Below, piece by piece: positions 42,604 through 49,547 of a stretch of DNA of 64,000 nucleotides. The first letter of the stretch is position 1; every line of letters begins with the position of its first letter. Position numbers and translations under genes: made by a program. The notes below the pieces were generated by a model. It was not told the origin of the DNA. It saw nothing but the letters and a program-made list of their open reading frames with translations, and searched no databases. The stretch comes from Halopseudomonas sabulinigri (GTDB lineage: Bacteria > Pseudomonadota > Gammaproteobacteria > Pseudomonadales > Pseudomonadaceae), in contig DRHT01000019.1 in assembly GCA_011053055.1 (NCBI GenBank), forward strand, positions 1 to 64,000, given 5' to 3'.

Positions 42604-42616
42604 CCAAGGAATGCCC

Positions 42617-44974
42617 ATGCTCCCGGTCAAGCCAGCAATCATGTTTCTGCTCAGCCTGCTGGTGTGCATCTTCATGTTTGGTACTTGGCTGATGTCCAGC
42701 TTGAATCTGGAGTACGCGCAAAATGCCATGGCTGAGTTGCGGCAGCGACAAATTACCGACACTTTCTACGCCAACCTGGACCGCATCAACGCCCACCATC
42801 GGCAGATGGAATACAACACTCATGGACTGGCCCGCACCGGCAGCCTGTTTGATAGCCTGGAGGACAACTCTGCGGTTACGGTGCAGCGCTTGCGCCAGAG
42901 CCTGCAACAGACGTTGCGAGACTTTCCCGATAGTTACGGCAGCAGCCTATGGTTCGCAGACGGCAGAACCGAGAAGGCGCTTTATGCCTATCGTCAGGAG
43001 AGCAACATTCTGGTCGAGGCCATTCCGGCAGCCGACCAGCAAATGATACGGCAGTGGTATCAGCGCCTGACTGAACTTGAGCAACAATCCAACAGCAATA
43101 TCGATCCCGCCAATAACTGGATGCCCGCTTACTACAAAGCCAGCATCGACAGCGCCGTGATCAGCCACGCGGTTTTAATTTTCAACAACCAGCAACAACC
43201 CATTGGGTTAGCGATTACCGATTGGCGAGCGGAAGATATTGTGCGCACGGTCAGTCGGGTTGAGGTCACCCCCGGCACTTTCTCGTTTTTGCTGGATACC
43301 GAAAACCGCAATCTTTCCAGCCTCTCAGAAGCTAAAAATGTGGCGCAGGCGCAAGAGCTGATCAACGCTATCGTCGACCTGAATCTTTATGAACAACTGA
43401 AACCACAATCCACCACCCGAATACTCAGCACGCGTCAGCTCGCCTCACCCATGCAGCACCTGCAACTTGACTTAAGTCAGCGCGAATATGCGCTGTTCTT
43501 CTCTCGTACCCAGGCTGGCATGCTGTTCGGCATTGGCGTGCCTCAAGCCGAGATTGATGCGGTGCTGGAGCCTATGCGGCAAAGCAACTTCCGAATTGTT
43601 AGCCTGACCGGGCTGATACTGCTGCTGATCTCCGCTCTCATTCTTTATCTAGTGGCAGGCATCCTGCGCCAACTGCATAACCTCTACACCGACAGCCTGA
43701 CAGAGCTACCTAATCGCGAGCGCCTGCTGGTTGATTTAAGAAAGCGTCGTACCGCGTCACTGATCCTGCTCAACATTGACTCTTTCAAAGAAATTAACGA
43801 TTTTTACGGCCACGAATGTGGTGACCACGTCATTATCGAGCTAGCGGATGCACTGGATGACTACCTGGGGAGTCAGCCCGATTGGCAGCAAAGCCGCCTA
43901 TATCGCATGCCCGCAGATGAGCTCGCCGTTTGGTTGCCAGGCGAACACAGCGAAGGACAACTGCAAAAGCAGATCAACCAGCTGCTCGAGTTCATCAGCG
44001 CACTGCGCATCACATGGCACAACCAGGATATACCCGTGAATGCCAGCCTGGGCGCTGCCAGCAGCGCCCAGCGCGGCAGTGAAGATCTGACCAGCGAAGC
44101 CCTGTTGCCTGGCGCAAACATCGCGCTGGAGCTAGCGCGCCTGCATAAAAACAATTACGTCATTTACGATGAGCGCCACAAAGTTCGTGAAAGCTACGAG
44201 CAAAATTTGATCTGGGCCAACCGCTTGAAAGGGGCATTGGAAACAGGTCGTATCGTGCCCTTCTTTCAACCCATCATGGACCTCAAAACCAATCGAATTG
44301 AGAAGTTTGAGTGCCTGGTAAGACTGCTGGATGACCAGGGTGAACCCATCAGCCCTTCACAGTTCCTCGATCTGGCGAAGAAAGTCCGCCTCTATCGCTC
44401 CATTACCCGCTGCATGGTAGAAAGCAGCATGCGGCAATTTGCAGATCTGCCATACACCTTCTCGCTGAACCTATCCTGTGAAGATCTATTGGATCAGGAA
44501 CTATCGGATCACATCATCGCCACTGTTGAACAAAACGAAATCGGTTCCAGGGTGATATTCGAGATCCTCGAATCAGAAGGTATTGAAAACTATGCTGCGG
44601 TGCGTCAGTTCATTGACCGTGCCAAGGCGCTCGGTTGCCGCATCGCGATTGACGACTTCGGCACTGGCTATTCCAACTTCGAGCACCTGCTACGTCTGGA
44701 TGTAGACCTGATCAAGATCGATGGCAGCCTGATTAAGCAACTGGACACCAACGCTACCGCGATGACCATCTGCAAAGGCATAGTGCAGTTTGCAGAGGAG
44801 CTTGGCATGTTGACGGTCGCTGAGTTCGTCCATAGCCCAGCCATTCTGGCGAAGGTGCGCGAACTGGGAGTGACCTTTGCACAGGGTGCTGCCATCGGCA
44901 TGCCATCGGCCAGTTTGATTACCAAGGTCACCATGACCGGCACCGAGCCCGAAGTGAACCGTGCCAAGAGTTAA
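42617..44974 (+). CDS. membrane GGDEF-EAL protein, probable c-di-GMP phosphodiesterase
   Basis: 785 residues from ATG 42617, which has AGGA 6 bases upstream; ATG 42611 is the alternative. Order: transmembrane helix (about 8-28), a Cache-like periplasmic domain (about 30-320), a second helix ('VSLTGLILLLISALILYLVAGIL'), degenerate GGDEF ('RMPADELAVWLPG' replaces GG[DE]EF), then EAL. EAL residues are kept: 'FECLVRLLD' (ECL for EAL), 'SLNLS', 'FEILESEG', 'DDFGTGYSNF' and 'LIKIDGS'. It probably hydrolyses c-di-GMP but does not make it. Confidence 0.88.
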   Translation: MLPVKPAIMFLLSLLVCIFMFGTWLMSSLNLEYAQNAMAELRQRQITDTFYANLDRINAHHRQMEYNTHGLARTGSLFDSLEDNSAVTVQRLRQSLQQTLRDFPDSYGSSLWFADGRTEKALYAYRQESNILVEAIPAADQQMIRQWYQRLTELEQQSNSNIDPANNWMPAYYKASIDSAVISHAVLIFNNQQQPIGLAITDWRAEDIVRTVSRVEVTPGTFSFLLDTENRNLSSLSEAKNVAQAQELINAIVDLNLYEQLKPQSTTRILSTRQLASPMQHLQLDLSQREYALFFSRTQAGMLFGIGVPQAEIDAVLEPMRQSNFRIVSLTGLILLLISALILYLVAGILRQLHNLYTDSLTELPNRERLLVDLRKRRTASLILLNIDSFKEINDFYGHECGDHVIIELADALDDYLGSQPDWQQSRLYRMPADELAVWLPGEHSEGQLQKQINQLLEFISALRITWHNQDIPVNASLGAASSAQRGSEDLTSEALLPGANIALELARLHKNNYVIYDERHKVRESYEQNLIWANRLKGALETGRIVPFFQPIMDLKTNRIEKFECLVRLLDDQGEPISPSQFLDLAKKVRLYRSITRCMVESSMRQFADLPYTFSLNLSCEDLLDQELSDHIIATVEQNEIGSRVIFEILESEGIENYAAVRQFIDRAKALGCRIAIDDFGTGYSNFEHLLRLDVDLIKIDGSLIKQLDTNATAMTICKGIVQFAEELGMLTVAEFVHSPAILAKVRELGVTFAQGAAIGMPSASLITKVTMTGTEPEVNRAKS

Positions 44975-45083: not shown

Positions 45084-45524
45084 CTAGCGATAGATGATAT
45101 CTCCGCGCATGGGCGCGAGTCGTTTTAGTAGTCGATTCTGTACGCGTACAGACAGACCTTCATCGTCCATCGCCGCAATCAGATCCTCCACCAATGCGTT
45201 AAAATCGCCTTGGCTGATATCAAAACCCGCGTGCACGTCAATCATGCTGTCACCGGTATATTCACAAGGACCGCCAGCCTCGACGCAAATCTGCTCCTGT
45301 AGCTTTTCTTGCAACCGGAGTATGTCGGTATCGGCGAAATGGTGCACGATGCGTGCGTCATCAGCAATGCGGTACAACAGGCCTTCCACCACCCGATTGA
45401 TACCCGCCTGCTCACCCATAGCCTGATACAGACTGTCATCCGCCGGCGTTGTATTGGTGGCGCAGCTGGCTACCCCCATGACAACAATACCCGTGCAGAT
45501 AATCTTAACTAATGGTTTGAACAT
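45084..45524 (-). CDS. group 1 truncated hemoglobin lipoprotein
   Basis: 146 residues. An N-terminal signal with lipobox VASC (Cys21) is followed by a group 1 truncated globin: 'VVEGLLYRIADDARIVHHFADTD', 'GGPCEYTGDSMIDVHAGFDIS' with proximal His98, and the usual C-terminal helices. Most truncated globins are cytoplasmic; this one is predicted to be lipid-anchored in the envelope. Residue +2 is Ala, so outer-membrane sorting is expected. It is the last gene of a four-gene operon, 8 bases after the DUF3034 gene. It probably binds O2 or NO. Confidence 0.87.
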   Translation of the reverse strand: MFKPLVKIICTGIVVMGVASCATNTTPADDSLYQAMGEQAGINRVVEGLLYRIADDARIVHHFADTDILRLQEKLQEQICVEAGGPCEYTGDSMIDVHAGFDISQGDFNALVEDLIAAMDDEGLSVRVQNRLLKRLAPMRGDIIYR

Positions 45525-45532
45525 GAACCGCC

Positions 45533-46390
45533 TCAGTAACTCAGTTGCAATGACAAATACAGGCCCTGCTGGCCTTCCAGCGTCGCGATTTCGCCCATAT
45601 CAGCCCACGAGGCGACTACCGCCACACGCTTGCTAGGAAAGTAGCCGACAAATAGGTCTTGCCAGTCGCTTTCTCCAGCGAAGGACAGATTATCCGGTTT
45701 CTCACGGTATTCGACGCCGACTATCCATTGCGGGCTTAACAGCAGACCGACACTGCCTTCCTTCAACAAACTACGGGTGTCGCGGCGATCACCACCAAAA
45801 CCGAGCAGGCCCGTTTCATTTGCCCGTGAGTAACGCAAGGTGCCATTGAGCAGCAGGTTATAGCCACCTACAGCGCCCAGAAACAGGCGCGAAGCTGCAA
45901 GATAATAATCGGTATCTGAATCACGCTTGGCGCCAACCAGTGATGGCACCAGGAAGTTACGTTGGCGCTTATACTGCGCACCAAACGAGACCTGCGGCAG
46001 TTGGTCGTAAATCAGATCACCGAACAGGCGCACTTTCAGCCCGTAGATATCTTGATTTAGGGTTTTTTCGGGCAGGCCTGCGGCTTTGGTCAGCGCATCT
46101 ATATCCAGACGCTGACGAGCAATCGACAGCTCCACGCGATTACCTAAGCTGAGCGCGGCGCCGAAGCTATCCAGCCGATAATCTCCGGTATCGACCCGCG
46201 TCGCAAAAACATCGCCGCCCCATTCATCACGGGTACCGTAGCCAGACAACACCGCCCAAGGCACTATGCCACCACCAGCAGCACCCTCAATACTGGTCGC
46301 ACCGCCCGTCGCGAGCATACGACCACCGGGCTCGGCCATCGCGCCGCTTGCACAAGCCACCAGCAAAGCGGCTATTGCAGCTTTTCTCAT
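45533..46390 (-). CDS. DUF3034-type outer-membrane beta-barrel protein
   Basis: 285 residues: a signal peptide ending 'ASGAMA' (cleavage before EPGGR), then many short amphipathic strands ending in an aromatic C-terminus (LQLSY), which is typical of outer-membrane barrels. The N-terminal 'LATGGATSIEGAAGGGIVPWAVL' is characteristic of DUF3034. Function unknown. Its ATG overlaps the preceding GGDEF-EAL gene by 4 bases, so synthesis is coupled. Confidence 0.78.
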   Translation of the reverse strand: MRKAAIAALLVACASGAMAEPGGRMLATGGATSIEGAAGGGIVPWAVLSGYGTRDEWGGDVFATRVDTGDYRLDSFGAALSLGNRVELSIARQRLDIDALTKAAGLPEKTLNQDIYGLKVRLFGDLIYDQLPQVSFGAQYKRQRNFLVPSLVGAKRDSDTDYYLAASRLFLGAVGGYNLLLNGTLRYSRANETGLLGFGGDRRDTRSLLKEGSVGLLLSPQWIVGVEYREKPDNLSFAGESDWQDLFVGYFPSKRVAVVASWADMGEIATLEGQQGLYLSLQLSY

Positions 46391-48690
46391 GCAGACTCCA
46401 CTACTCCGAAGGTACCACGGGTATCCTCAAGCCATTGCTCTAAAGCTGCTGCAGCCAACGGCCGACTAATGAAGTACCCCTGAGCCACATCACAATGACG
46501 CTCTTTCAGCCAGTTCAGGCTGTCTATGCTCTCTATTCCCTCGGCAATCACTTTCAAGCCCATATTGTGCGCCAATTCGATGGTCGACTTGACGATAACG
46601 GCATCGTCGCTGCCCTCCGCAAGCTGCAGCACAAAAGACTTGTCTATCTTCAAGTCTTGCACCGGCAGACTCTTCAGCGTAGCCAACGATGAATAGCCTG
46701 TCCCGTAATCATCCACCGCCAATGCGATACCCAGGTCACGCAGCACACGCAGACTATTCAGGCTGCGCTCAGGGTTTATCATCACTGCACTTTCGGTGAC
46801 TTCCATCGACAGATACTCAGGGCTGATCTGTTGGGCGCGCAGCAGATGCTCGATGCGCTGGGGAAATTGCGGGTCGTCCAAATCACGAGCAGATATATTC
46901 ATCGCTACCTGAAGATGAATACCACGATCTATCCAATTGCGTAACTGCGAGGCAACCGCGGCCATCATCCATTGCGTCAGCATGCCAATGCTGCCGGTCT
47001 GCTCGGCCAAAACAATGAACTCATCAGGAGTGATCGGACCAAGTTCGCTGTGCGTCCAGCGCATCAACGCTTCAACCTGCCGCACTTCGCCGCTGGCCAA
47101 ATCCAATTTCGGCTGAAACACTACCGCCAGCTCTTTGTACTCCGGGGCATAACGAAGGTCCCGCGCCAATCGAATACGTCGTTGGTACGCTTGATCACGC
47201 TGCGCCTGATACACCGCAATGCGTTCCGGGCCGGGAGCAGCGTCTCCCAGTGCAATACTGACTTGGCGTAACAGCTCACCCGCGTCACGCCCTTGCAACG
47301 GCCACTCCACTACACCGGCCATCCATTGCGAGCGGAGCTTGATATCCTCAACCTGCATCTTCTCGCCGAGCTGAGCCAGCATCGCGTCGATAACCACCAC
47401 CGCCTCATCCAGATCACGGCGCTCCAACAACAACAGAAAGCCCACCCCTGGTTGCCAAGCCAGCAATGAATCGGCCGGTAGCTGGCCTCCCAAACACGCT
47501 ACTGACTGGCGTACCAAGGTATCCATGAAACTCTGTCCACGGGCCTTAACCATCAATTCTGCGGTCACCAAATTGCATTGCGCAAGCACACCGCTTTGCC
47601 CACTGACAATCGAGCTATTCAGTCGCTCACGCATCACGCCAACGTTAGCCAATCCGGTCAGTGGGTCATGCAGCGCGTTATGCGCAATCAAACTTTCCCG
47701 CTCGGCGATACCGATCCGCATGGCATCGATGCTTTCGGCCAAGAGCCCTAACTCATCATTGCGGGCAAGCGTGACTTTGTGGGTGTAGTCGCCCCGACCA
47801 ATACGCTTGGCTGCCTCCGCCAACAAGGTGACCGGACGCGCTAAACCGCCGGATAAACGCACCGCCAAAAACGAGGAAGCCAATAGCGCGATCAGCGTGA
47901 TAATCAACAGTTCGCGCTTGAGATCATCGAAGCTCGCCAGCGCATCGCTCAGCGGGCTGGCCATCTGAGCCACCACACTGTAAGGCGCCTGATCCAGAAG
48001 GGTAATGGCGGTAGTCAGATAGCCTTCCCTCTCGAGCCTCTGCGTGCCCTGCTGCAGGCTCATATCCTGCTGTGCATATGGGGTGGTCGAAAAGGTGCTC
48101 ATGACCTCTTTGTCTCGGCTGCTGACAAAGCGAATTTCCAGGCCAGTCAACTTCTGCATTTCGCGGGCCAGCGCAGCGTCCAGGCTGAATGCCATCGCAA
48201 CCTGCCCCACTGGAACGGGCGCGTGCACCACCGCCTCTACCAACAAATAGGGTCGATGATCAATCATCGCAATCAACGCTTGCTCGGAAAATGCTTGCAG
48301 TGACTCCACCTGCGCGGTGTCTGAGCCTGGCATGGTCGCCGACGAAATACGCAGGTCACCCTGCGCATCAAAAAACAATGCCTGGTCAGCACCAATGCGG
48401 CTTGCCTGATTTAGCAAGGCCGAGCGAATGGTCGCTAAATCCCCCGTGGCAACCGCCTGACGGAAGCCGAAGTCTGCTACCAGAATCTGCGTTGCGTTGG
48501 TTAACTCACGCGCTCGAGCTTCCAGCAGATTTCTGAAAACGTTGCTACCTACCTCTAGTTGCCGTTGCGCCTGTCGCTCCGCTGAGAAGTCTGTGCTGGT
48601 ATAAACCGCAAAAAACACAGCCCCCAGTACCAACGACAGCAAGCAGACAGACGTAACTATCAGCCTGGTACGCAGATACCGAATACGCAC
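46387..48690 (-). CDS. Cache-HAMP-GGDEF-EAL protein, probable c-di-GMP phosphodiesterase
   Basis: 767 residues from GTG 48690 (GGAG 6 bases before). Order: transmembrane helix (10-30), a large periplasmic double-Cache-like sensor (about 35-245), a second helix ('LLIITLIALLASSFLAVRL'), HAMP (about 280-330), degenerate GGDEF ('LLAWQPGVGFLLLL' in place of the signature), and EAL. EAL residues appear complete: 'VEALMRW', 'AMNISARDL', 'MEVTESAVM', 'DDYGTGYSSL', 'DLKIDKSF' and 'AEGIESI'. Phosphodiesterase activity is therefore more likely than cyclase. It sits between a periplasmic cupredoxin and DUF3034. Confidence 0.9.
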   Translation of the reverse strand: MRIRYLRTRLIVTSVCLLSLVLGAVFFAVYTSTDFSAERQAQRQLEVGSNVFRNLLEARARELTNATQILVADFGFRQAVATGDLATIRSALLNQASRIGADQALFFDAQGDLRISSATMPGSDTAQVESLQAFSEQALIAMIDHRPYLLVEAVVHAPVPVGQVAMAFSLDAALAREMQKLTGLEIRFVSSRDKEVMSTFSTTPYAQQDMSLQQGTQRLEREGYLTTAITLLDQAPYSVVAQMASPLSDALASFDDLKRELLIITLIALLASSFLAVRLSGGLARPVTLLAEAAKRIGRGDYTHKVTLARNDELGLLAESIDAMRIGIAERESLIAHNALHDPLTGLANVGVMRERLNSSIVSGQSGVLAQCNLVTAELMVKARGQSFMDTLVRQSVACLGGQLPADSLLAWQPGVGFLLLLERRDLDEAVVVIDAMLAQLGEKMQVEDIKLRSQWMAGVVEWPLQGRDAGELLRQVSIALGDAAPGPERIAVYQAQRDQAYQRRIRLARDLRYAPEYKELAVVFQPKLDLASGEVRQVEALMRWTHSELGPITPDEFIVLAEQTGSIGMLTQWMMAAVASQLRNWIDRGIHLQVAMNISARDLDDPQFPQRIEHLLRAQQISPEYLSMEVTESAVMINPERSLNSLRVLRDLGIALAVDDYGTGYSSLATLKSLPVQDLKIDKSFVLQLAEGSDDAVIVKSTIELAHNMGLKVIAEGIESIDSLNWLKERHCDVAQGYFISRPLAAAALEQWLEDTRGTFGVVESA

Positions 48691-48693
48691 CCG

Positions 48694-49368
48694 CTACTCC
48701 GCCGCTTTCTTGAAGCGTTGCTGCAACGGAGATAGCACTGGTGTCGGCGCCTGCTTAGCTGAGGACACTGGCAGGCTCAGAACCTGGCCCGCTTGATTCA
48801 GGTCCAGCTCACCGAGTGCGACGGGCGGCTGCTCAAGCTGTGATGGATGCCACCACGAAACCGGCCAGTTGCCAGCCGGCAAATCAGGCAGCGACACAAT
48901 CCCCTGCGCATCGCTCACGGCAAAGCGGGGGCTTTGGGTGACCAGAATGTAGCCAATCATGGAGTCGTGAATATTGCAGCCAAGCACCACTACACCGGCG
49001 CGATCAAAAGCGACCGGAGGTGCCTCAGCGCCCTTGAAAAGACGCAGCTCAAACGGCTTGGCAGAAGAGAAAGAATAGACGTGATGGCGCACATCATCAC
49101 TATTTGGAAAGTCCACCAGGGTGCCAACAGGCGCAACCAATACGCGTGGCACAAACTGTATATCGACCTGATCCATCACATACTGCTGAGACTGCAACGC
49201 GGGTATGCCATCCACGAGCAACACGGCATTGGACAAAGGCGCGCCAGCCTTATCAGTCAACATGACCTGCGCAGCATTACTTTGCACAGTCCAGAGTAAA
49301 GAGACGGCCGCGGATAAGAGGGTAAACATGGCGTAGCGCATTTTCTTGCCGTTCGAGTACTGATACAT
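48694..49368 (-). CDS. periplasmic cupredoxin-like (methylamine-utilisation-type) protein
   Basis: 224 residues from ATG 49368; ATG 49341 (MRYAM) gives a cleaner signal peptide ending 'VQSNAA'. The cupredoxin fold has a full type 1 copper set: His95/His96 in 'DDVRHHVYSF' and Cys131, His134, Met137 in 'LGCNIHDSMIGY'. A beta-sandwich extension follows ('DAQGIVSLPDLPAG'). Such proteins are often labelled methylamine utilisation protein, but no methylamine dehydrogenase is present. It probably carries electrons or senses redox state. It is the first gene of the operon, 3 bases from the next. Confidence 0.82.
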   Translation of the reverse strand: MYQYSNGKKMRYAMFTLLSAAVSLLWTVQSNAAQVMLTDKAGAPLSNAVLLVDGIPALQSQQYVMDQVDIQFVPRVLVAPVGTLVDFPNSDDVRHHVYSFSSAKPFELRLFKGAEAPPVAFDRAGVVVLGCNIHDSMIGYILVTQSPRFAVSDAQGIVSLPDLPAGNWPVSWWHPSQLEQPPVALGELDLNQAGQVLSLPVSSAKQAPTPVLSPLQQRFKKAAE

Positions 49369-49547
49369 GGGCTGTTCGCTCTATAAAGAAGTGATACGGC
49401 AGCCTGCGTACTGCTCCGATCCTCCGACGCTCAAGCTCCAATTGGTGGTCACAGCTGAGATTCGTTGCCCAGTCGTGATTAGCTATGTTGCCTGACATCA
49501 TTCGACGTTAGCATAGCCTGATTGCAAACTGATGTGCAGGAGCGAAG

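Follow-up and report, generated by a model that had tools for sequence, protein, structure and literature searches.

Relation to described envelope systems

A single operon of the YfiBNR (TpbB) system encodes an outer-membrane part, a periplasmic regulator and a c-di-GMP enzyme of the inner membrane that has a HAMP domain, with YfiR as the periplasmic repressor, YfiB as an OmpA-like lipoprotein and an active GGDEF domain as the output. For many c-di-GMP enzymes, the signal to which they respond has yet to be identified. In the Hmr pathway of the Caulobacter envelope, copper is reported to repress biofilm formation, with an involvement of c-di-GMP (PMC11481889).

The locus studied here lies in a stretch of 64,000 nucleotides of Halopseudomonas sabulinigri DNA, the whole of which is called the window. 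Four co-directional genes on the minus strand encode a secreted cupredoxin (48694-49368, without a Pfam family at 0.001), a receptor with dCache_3, HAMP, GGDEF and EAL domains by Pfam (46387-48690, GTG start), a DUF3034 protein (45533-46390, Pfam 1.5e-111) and a truncated haemoglobin (45084-45524, Pfam Bac_globin 6e-13). Three bases separate the cupredoxin and receptor genes, the receptor and DUF3034 genes overlap by 4 bases, and 8 bases lie between the DUF3034 and globin genes. This arrangement supports one transcription unit of four genes, and our reading frames and spacings agree exactly with those of the first-pass annotation.

The unit shares with YfiBNR a trans-envelope layout in one operon, whereas it differs in its likely phosphodiesterase output, in having a copper protein as its periplasmic part and in the added haem protein. 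We know of no part that is homologous between the two. The YfiR and YfiB families are absent from the Pfam results of the four proteins and the GGDEF motif of the receptor is degenerate, which places the unit outside YfiBNR. With Hmr it would have in common an envelope pathway that ties copper to c-di-GMP; Hmr, however, is a phosphorelay, and the words cupredoxin and globin are absent from the text of PMC11481889. The best-supported description of the unit is a putative envelope-spanning input to a c-di-GMP phosphodiesterase, with a layout like that of YfiBNR. No description of the four-gene unit was found in the open-licence literature, a scope outside which most subscription journals fall, nor does one occur in the available parts of PMC3770913, PMC13101516, PMC11976967, PMC6515357 and PMC11481889; within that literature, the earlier statement that no characterised system combines these four parts holds.

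The region upstream of the unit (49369-49547, divergent and assigned to neither strand) faces a luciferase-like monooxygenase gene, and the operon promoter should lie within it. A promoter scan (1 found versus 2.3 expected) and a terminator scan (4 found versus 3.8 expected) were uninformative. No FNR/ANR box was found in this region. Across relatives, such a box, which would point to an O2/NO-type operator before the cupredoxin gene, also gained no support, as the 126 upstream stretches contained no exact box and only one with at most one mismatch, against a mononucleotide-shuffle mean of 0.75.

Conservation of the gene set

We searched 398 genomes across the phylum for DUF3034 and examined the flanks in 38 genomes plus the window. 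DUF3034 is present in 39 of the 398, and a globin gene adjoins it in all 39. All four genes occur together in 30 of the 39 (29 of 38, plus the window), divergent and reordered arrangements included. The gene order of the window is collinear in 23 of these 30 complete loci, the cupredoxin-EAL pair is divergent from DUF3034-globin in six (L033, L035, L036, L038, L055 and L061), and at L053 the genes run DUF3034, globin, cupredoxin, EAL. In the nine incomplete genomes (L031, L032, L034, L037, L039, L045, L047, L062 and L065), one or both members of the cupredoxin-EAL pair are missing at that place. The DUF3034 match at L039 (G261:C8) is limited to profile positions 87-255, which may mean that the gene is truncated or disrupted; the globin beside it is intact. 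L040 (G078:C3), a broken second DUF3034-globin copy, was excluded from the counts.

A second set comprised the best 80 of at least 589 named matches, mostly from Pseudomonas and Xanthomonas and hence biased. The full gene order is found in 76 of these 80 loci, 12 of the 76 having one extra adjoining EAL gene; contig ends interrupt three others, and at L119 the position of the EAL gene holds no intact copy. Row counts from the two sets are not independent, as at least four named contigs are also sampled ones (L074/L049, L116/L042, L118/L041 and L141/L050). All four genes are also present on a Caballeronia plasmid (beta), where RefSeq names them 'DUF3034 family protein', 'group 1 truncated hemoglobin', 'methylamine utilization protein' and 'EAL domain-containing protein', and on a Novosphingobium plasmid (alpha), where the cupredoxin is named 'carboxypeptidase regulatory-like domain-containing protein'. 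Together with the named Pseudomonas and Xanthomonas loci, the unit spans alpha-, beta- and gammaproteobacteria. The DUF3034 protein of the window is 84% identical to that of Pseudomonas neustonica and 80% identical to that of Halopseudomonas aestusnigri. The gene set is therefore kept far outside the genus (30 of 398 sampled genomes), an outcome on which the first-pass annotation had made its reading depend.

The genes also co-occur at the level of whole genomes. The globin profile scores above 140 bits in 41 genomes, the next value being 94 if the broken second copy in G078 is set aside, and DUF3034 is found in 39 of these 41 (exceptions G154 and G328). Cupredoxin matches under about 80 bits were left aside. 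A full-length cupredoxin, defined as a match above 135 bits, is present in 38 of 39 DUF3034 genomes versus 13 of 359 others (Fisher ~1e-40); the Fisher values for co-occurrence, ~1e-40 to 1e-52, overstate the significance because the genomes are related and not independent. The 2.3 Mb genome G078 carries DUF3034-globin, and no cupredoxin of the family was found in it; DUF3034-globin can thus occur independently of the cupredoxin-receptor pair, a point against the sensing reading given below.

Two modules and a common cupredoxin

The first-pass annotation treated the four genes as one system. They are indeed joined in the window, but elsewhere they behave as two modules, cupredoxin with receptor and DUF3034 with globin, which are divergent, reordered or apart. 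The genomes G261, G225, G389 and G213 each carry the cupredoxin-EAL pair and DUF3034-globin at separate loci; in G246, one cupredoxin accompanies globin-DUF3034, and a further cupredoxin is paired with EAL at a different site.

We examined 24 cupredoxin loci away from DUF3034-globin. A GGDEF-EAL gene lies next to the cupredoxin gene in 15 of them, 13 scoring above 600 bits; the EAL neighbours at L151 and L155 give a weak or partial match. At L162 the cupredoxin stands before a dCache_3-HAMP-Ser/Thr kinase, and no receptor adjoins it in the remaining eight (L152, L153, L154, L157, L167, L169, L170 and L172), L154 lying at a contig end. Outside the 24, two distant relatives (L176 and L177) stand before a hybrid histidine kinase that contains PAS but, by Pfam, no dCache domain. 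A MauG-type peroxidase (Pfam) is encoded between cupredoxin and kinase at L176, and L177 has a short reading frame that is MauG-like by eye.

A secreted family of about 410 residues, here called B400, is encoded downstream of the cupredoxin-EAL pair in 8 of the 15 loci (L150, L156, L158-L161, L171 and L173). Its signal peptide, strand pattern and aromatic C-terminus, read from the sequence, suggest a barrel-like protein. Six members scanned with Pfam gave a single weak Porin_4 match below the cut-off, three scanned with NCBIfam gave no match, and the family had no match in the plasmid collection. Cupredoxin and B400 also occur together without a receptor (L153, L157, L167 and L170), and B400 is divergent at L172. 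Since units with different barrels and different outputs have the cupredoxin in common, it is probably the constant middle element, and at least two outer modules exist, DUF3034-globin among them. The cupredoxin-B400 loci without an adjoining receptor count against a role as messenger to the receptor, as the cupredoxin may have served the barrel first.

At L153 and L157 the cupredoxin-B400 genes lie downstream of genes whose sequences look sensor-kinase-, TonB-receptor- and PiuC-oxygenase-like, a hint of iron supply. A DUF4394 gene precedes the cupredoxin-EAL genes at L181, on a Comamonas aquatica plasmid, and may encode a further outer partner.

The receptor and the cupredoxin

The receptor is an inner-membrane protein whose dCache_3 domain matches Pfam at 1e-13. 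When nine of the EAL receptors were re-scanned, eight had dCache_3 at E<=0.001, seven of them above the curated cut-off. Nine positions of the catalytic set of active EAL domains are intact in 118 of 118 rows. The GGDEF motif of the window reads PGVGF, which departs from the GG[DE]EF expected of an active diguanylate cyclase; an intact GG[DE]EF is present in 15 of 118 rows. Pfam and the residue check thus bear out the annotated Cache-HAMP-GGDEF(degenerate)-EAL(intact) architecture. The receptor is a predicted c-di-GMP phosphodiesterase, and because the EAL catalytic set is intact, lowering c-di-GMP is its likely output.

An AF2 model of the cupredoxin (pLDDT 88.9) has structural matches to cupredoxins within residues 47-146, including the cupredoxin domain of NirK (Z 12.7), plastocyanins (Z about 12) and amicyanin; the search hardly probed the C-terminal part. 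A plastocyanin/amicyanin-like domain (about 60-144) is followed by a beta-rich C-terminal part and a C-terminal helix (214-223), which is not universal among the relatives. The copper ligands are H95, C131, H134 and M137, and the His, Cys, His and Met are kept in 136 of 136 rows. These ligands on a cupredoxin fold identify a type 1 cupredoxin, as the first-pass annotation had read it. The fold and the Cx2Hx2M ligand loop, whose spacing we take to be that of amicyanin, are common to the window protein and amicyanin/plastocyanin, whereas additional C-terminal sequence and a tail that varies with the partner set it apart. Most plasmid relatives are labelled 'methylamine utilization protein' in RefSeq; methylamine dehydrogenase (PF02975) had no match in G000, and the control genomes were likewise without a match.

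The tail was compared between barrel classes. At B400 loci, a Tyr occurs among the last four cupredoxin residues in 12 of 12 cases (8 with EAL, 4 without), versus 0 of 32 sampled and 0 of 77 named cupredoxins at DUF3034 loci. Among 12 other loci it occurs in six, namely two of five cupredoxin-EAL loci without a recognised barrel and four (L151, L155, L162 and L172) of the remaining seven (L151, L152, L154, L155, L162, L169 and L172). For 11 of the 12 cupredoxins with B400, the terminal 16 residues are acidic (mean charge -4.25 over the 12; L150 has +1). At DUF3034 loci the mean is +0.2 in 23 loci and +1.9 in nine others, a mostly alpha-/beta-like group made by hand; three rows reach -2 or -3. 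The tail at L152, one of the seven other loci, is also acidic; acidity is nearer to being B400-specific than the Tyr. In a tree of cupredoxin cores with the tails removed, the B400 group is not one clade: four changes are needed, at least three of them forced by supported branches, a suggestive result in a tree that is weakly resolved and leaves out L176-L179 and the named loci. We infer that the tail docks the outer-membrane partner, and the C-terminal helix 214-223 may be what docks the barrel.

A proposed trans-envelope sensing unit

These features are best explained by a trans-envelope sensing unit that sets c-di-GMP, a reading to which we give a probability of just under one half. The gene set, the residue conservation, the pairing pattern and the tail difference between barrel classes are observed, and from them we infer the contacts, the electron transfer, the ligand and the direction of signalling. 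The outer membrane would house the DUF3034 barrel, and the haem lipoprotein would be bound at the periplasmic face of the barrel; a small molecule, either redox-active or a gas, would reach the two there as the signal. The type 1 copper protein of the periplasm would act as the messenger that relays the state of the barrel-globin pair, its tail docking the barrel side and its body docking the dCache domain of the inner-membrane receptor. Hydrolysis of c-di-GMP by the EAL domain would then favour dispersal or motility. The first-pass annotation had proposed a unit that senses redox state or gas and lowers c-di-GMP; the intact EAL domain and the redox and haem proteins of the envelope fit that proposal, which is thus partly supported.

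A bolder and more tentative proposal is that such loci form a new tripartite class of envelope signalling, with a blue copper messenger, a barrel-specific tail and exchangeable outputs (phosphodiesterase, Ser/Thr kinase and perhaps histidine kinase), the haem lipoprotein supplying gas or redox sensing in the DUF3034 branch. A conserved, metal-bearing periplasmic partner linked to an outer-membrane barrel would give a testable input for many dCache receptors, DUF3034 and the globins named only 'group 1 truncated hemoglobin' would gain a function, and the redox or NO state of the envelope would be linked to the biofilm-motility switch in Pseudomonas, Xanthomonas and many environmental bacteria.

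The globin and a possible electron-transfer chain

The globin matches Bac_globin at 49.5 bits (cut-off 21), which assigns it to group 1 truncated haemoglobins, and a profile match to HbN chains (E ~1e-24) supports the residue register. Proximal (F8) His98 and CD1 Phe63, which are common to the window globin and HbN, are kept in 118 of 118 relatives. HbN-type NO dioxygenation uses polar distal residues, B10 Tyr and E11 Gln. In the relatives, by contrast, B10 is L, V, I or M in 117 of 118 (one Asn) and E11 is L or F in all 118, so that membership of the HbN-type NO dioxygenases was rejected. Cys80 and Cys87 (Cys-x6-Cys), each kept in 117 of 118, and a secreted or lipoprotein form further distinguish the window globin from HbN. 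The lipobox of the window, read from the sequence as VASC with Cys21, agrees with the earlier annotation of a lipoprotein globin; it is not universal, since a crude test with uncertain start codons detects it in 21 of the 38 sampled rows and in 69 of the 80 named ones. Bound O2 is not stabilised by an apolar distal pocket; this speaks against a dioxygenase of the HbN kind and makes NO, CO or redox state likelier inputs. Taken with the Cys pair, the pocket would point to NO or thiol/redox state and away from carriage of O2.

The same two redox cofactors could instead form an envelope electron-transfer or detoxification chain, in which globin and cupredoxin convert NO, peroxide or O2 admitted by the barrel and the phosphodiesterase is a co-expressed bystander reporting respiration. 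The MauG-like genes beside the cupredoxin at L176 and L177 would fit such a chain, as would truncated haemoglobin domains fused to cytochromes in cable bacteria, for which PMC11976967 reports a proposed role as a periplasmic terminal oxidase. We nevertheless consider it unlikely: the distal B10/E11 positions lack the polar residues of HbN, none of the four genes encodes a reductase, and a phosphodiesterase gene adjoins the cupredoxin gene in 13 strong cases without local globin and DUF3034 (some of these genomes carry DUF3034-globin elsewhere).

The barrel and its structural relatives

The DUF3034 protein matches PF11231 at 372.5 bits (cut-off 25) over profile positions 1-255 of 255, and a model (pLDDT 73) predicts a 12-stranded outer-membrane barrel, in line with the barrel annotated at first pass. 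A conserved N-terminal segment precedes strand 1, where model confidence is low. The best fold match is FapF (Z 19.6 over 219 residues, 3.1 Å, 11% identity), followed by KdgM (17.9), a COG4313 channel (17.5) and NanC (17.5); PcoB is also among the matches (12.4). FapF, KdgM, NanC and the COG4313 channels share the 12-stranded barrel, the FapF alignment starting at residue 23; identity to DUF3034, however, is at most 11% and the operon is different. A PDB sequence search with DUF3034 gave no match to FapF at E<=10, and matches to Ika8 (4e-5) and Ika4 (0.016) were dismissed as chance, as no stretch passes alone. Two papers that mention DUF3034 give no sign of a barrel in the passages concerned: in one it is an actinobacterial 'integral membrane protein', and in the other the term stands beside DUF3037 in the legend of a retron figure.

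PcoB among these matches, and the link of the cupredoxin to B400 even without a phosphodiesterase, bring to mind uptake or efflux of copper or a small molecule, with the barrel as a channel, the cupredoxin as a copper carrier and c-di-GMP adjusted to the copper supply. A type 1 copper site serves electron transfer and not the carriage of copper, PcoB (Z 12.4) falls far below FapF (Z 19.6), and the conserved haem globin is left unexplained; we judge this reading quite improbable, even with the Hmr pathway of Caulobacter as a precedent for envelope copper, biofilm and c-di-GMP acting together (PMC11481889). FapF leads the structural matches, which would fit a secretion or matrix function with DUF3034 as a FapF-like exporter and matrix release tuned by the phosphodiesterase. 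This reading is very improbable, since identity is 11%, KdgM, NanC and COG4313 channels score nearly as high (17.5-17.9), no amyloid-like secreted protein is encoded among the four genes, and fold alone gives no function.

Additional EAL genes around the unit

A second EAL receptor gene lies before the cupredoxin gene in 10 of the best 80 named loci, all from Pseudomonas (L095, L101, L102, L110, L114-L116, L118, L126 and L128), giving the order EAL, cupredoxin, EAL, DUF3034, globin. In the window, a second GGDEF-EAL gene (42611-44974, plus strand) is convergent with the unit, 109 bases separating the 3' ends, and its product has a weak PDC-like sensor match by Pfam. A gene matching the EAL profile also occurs shortly after the globin gene at L043, L066 and L067, and one gene further at L059.
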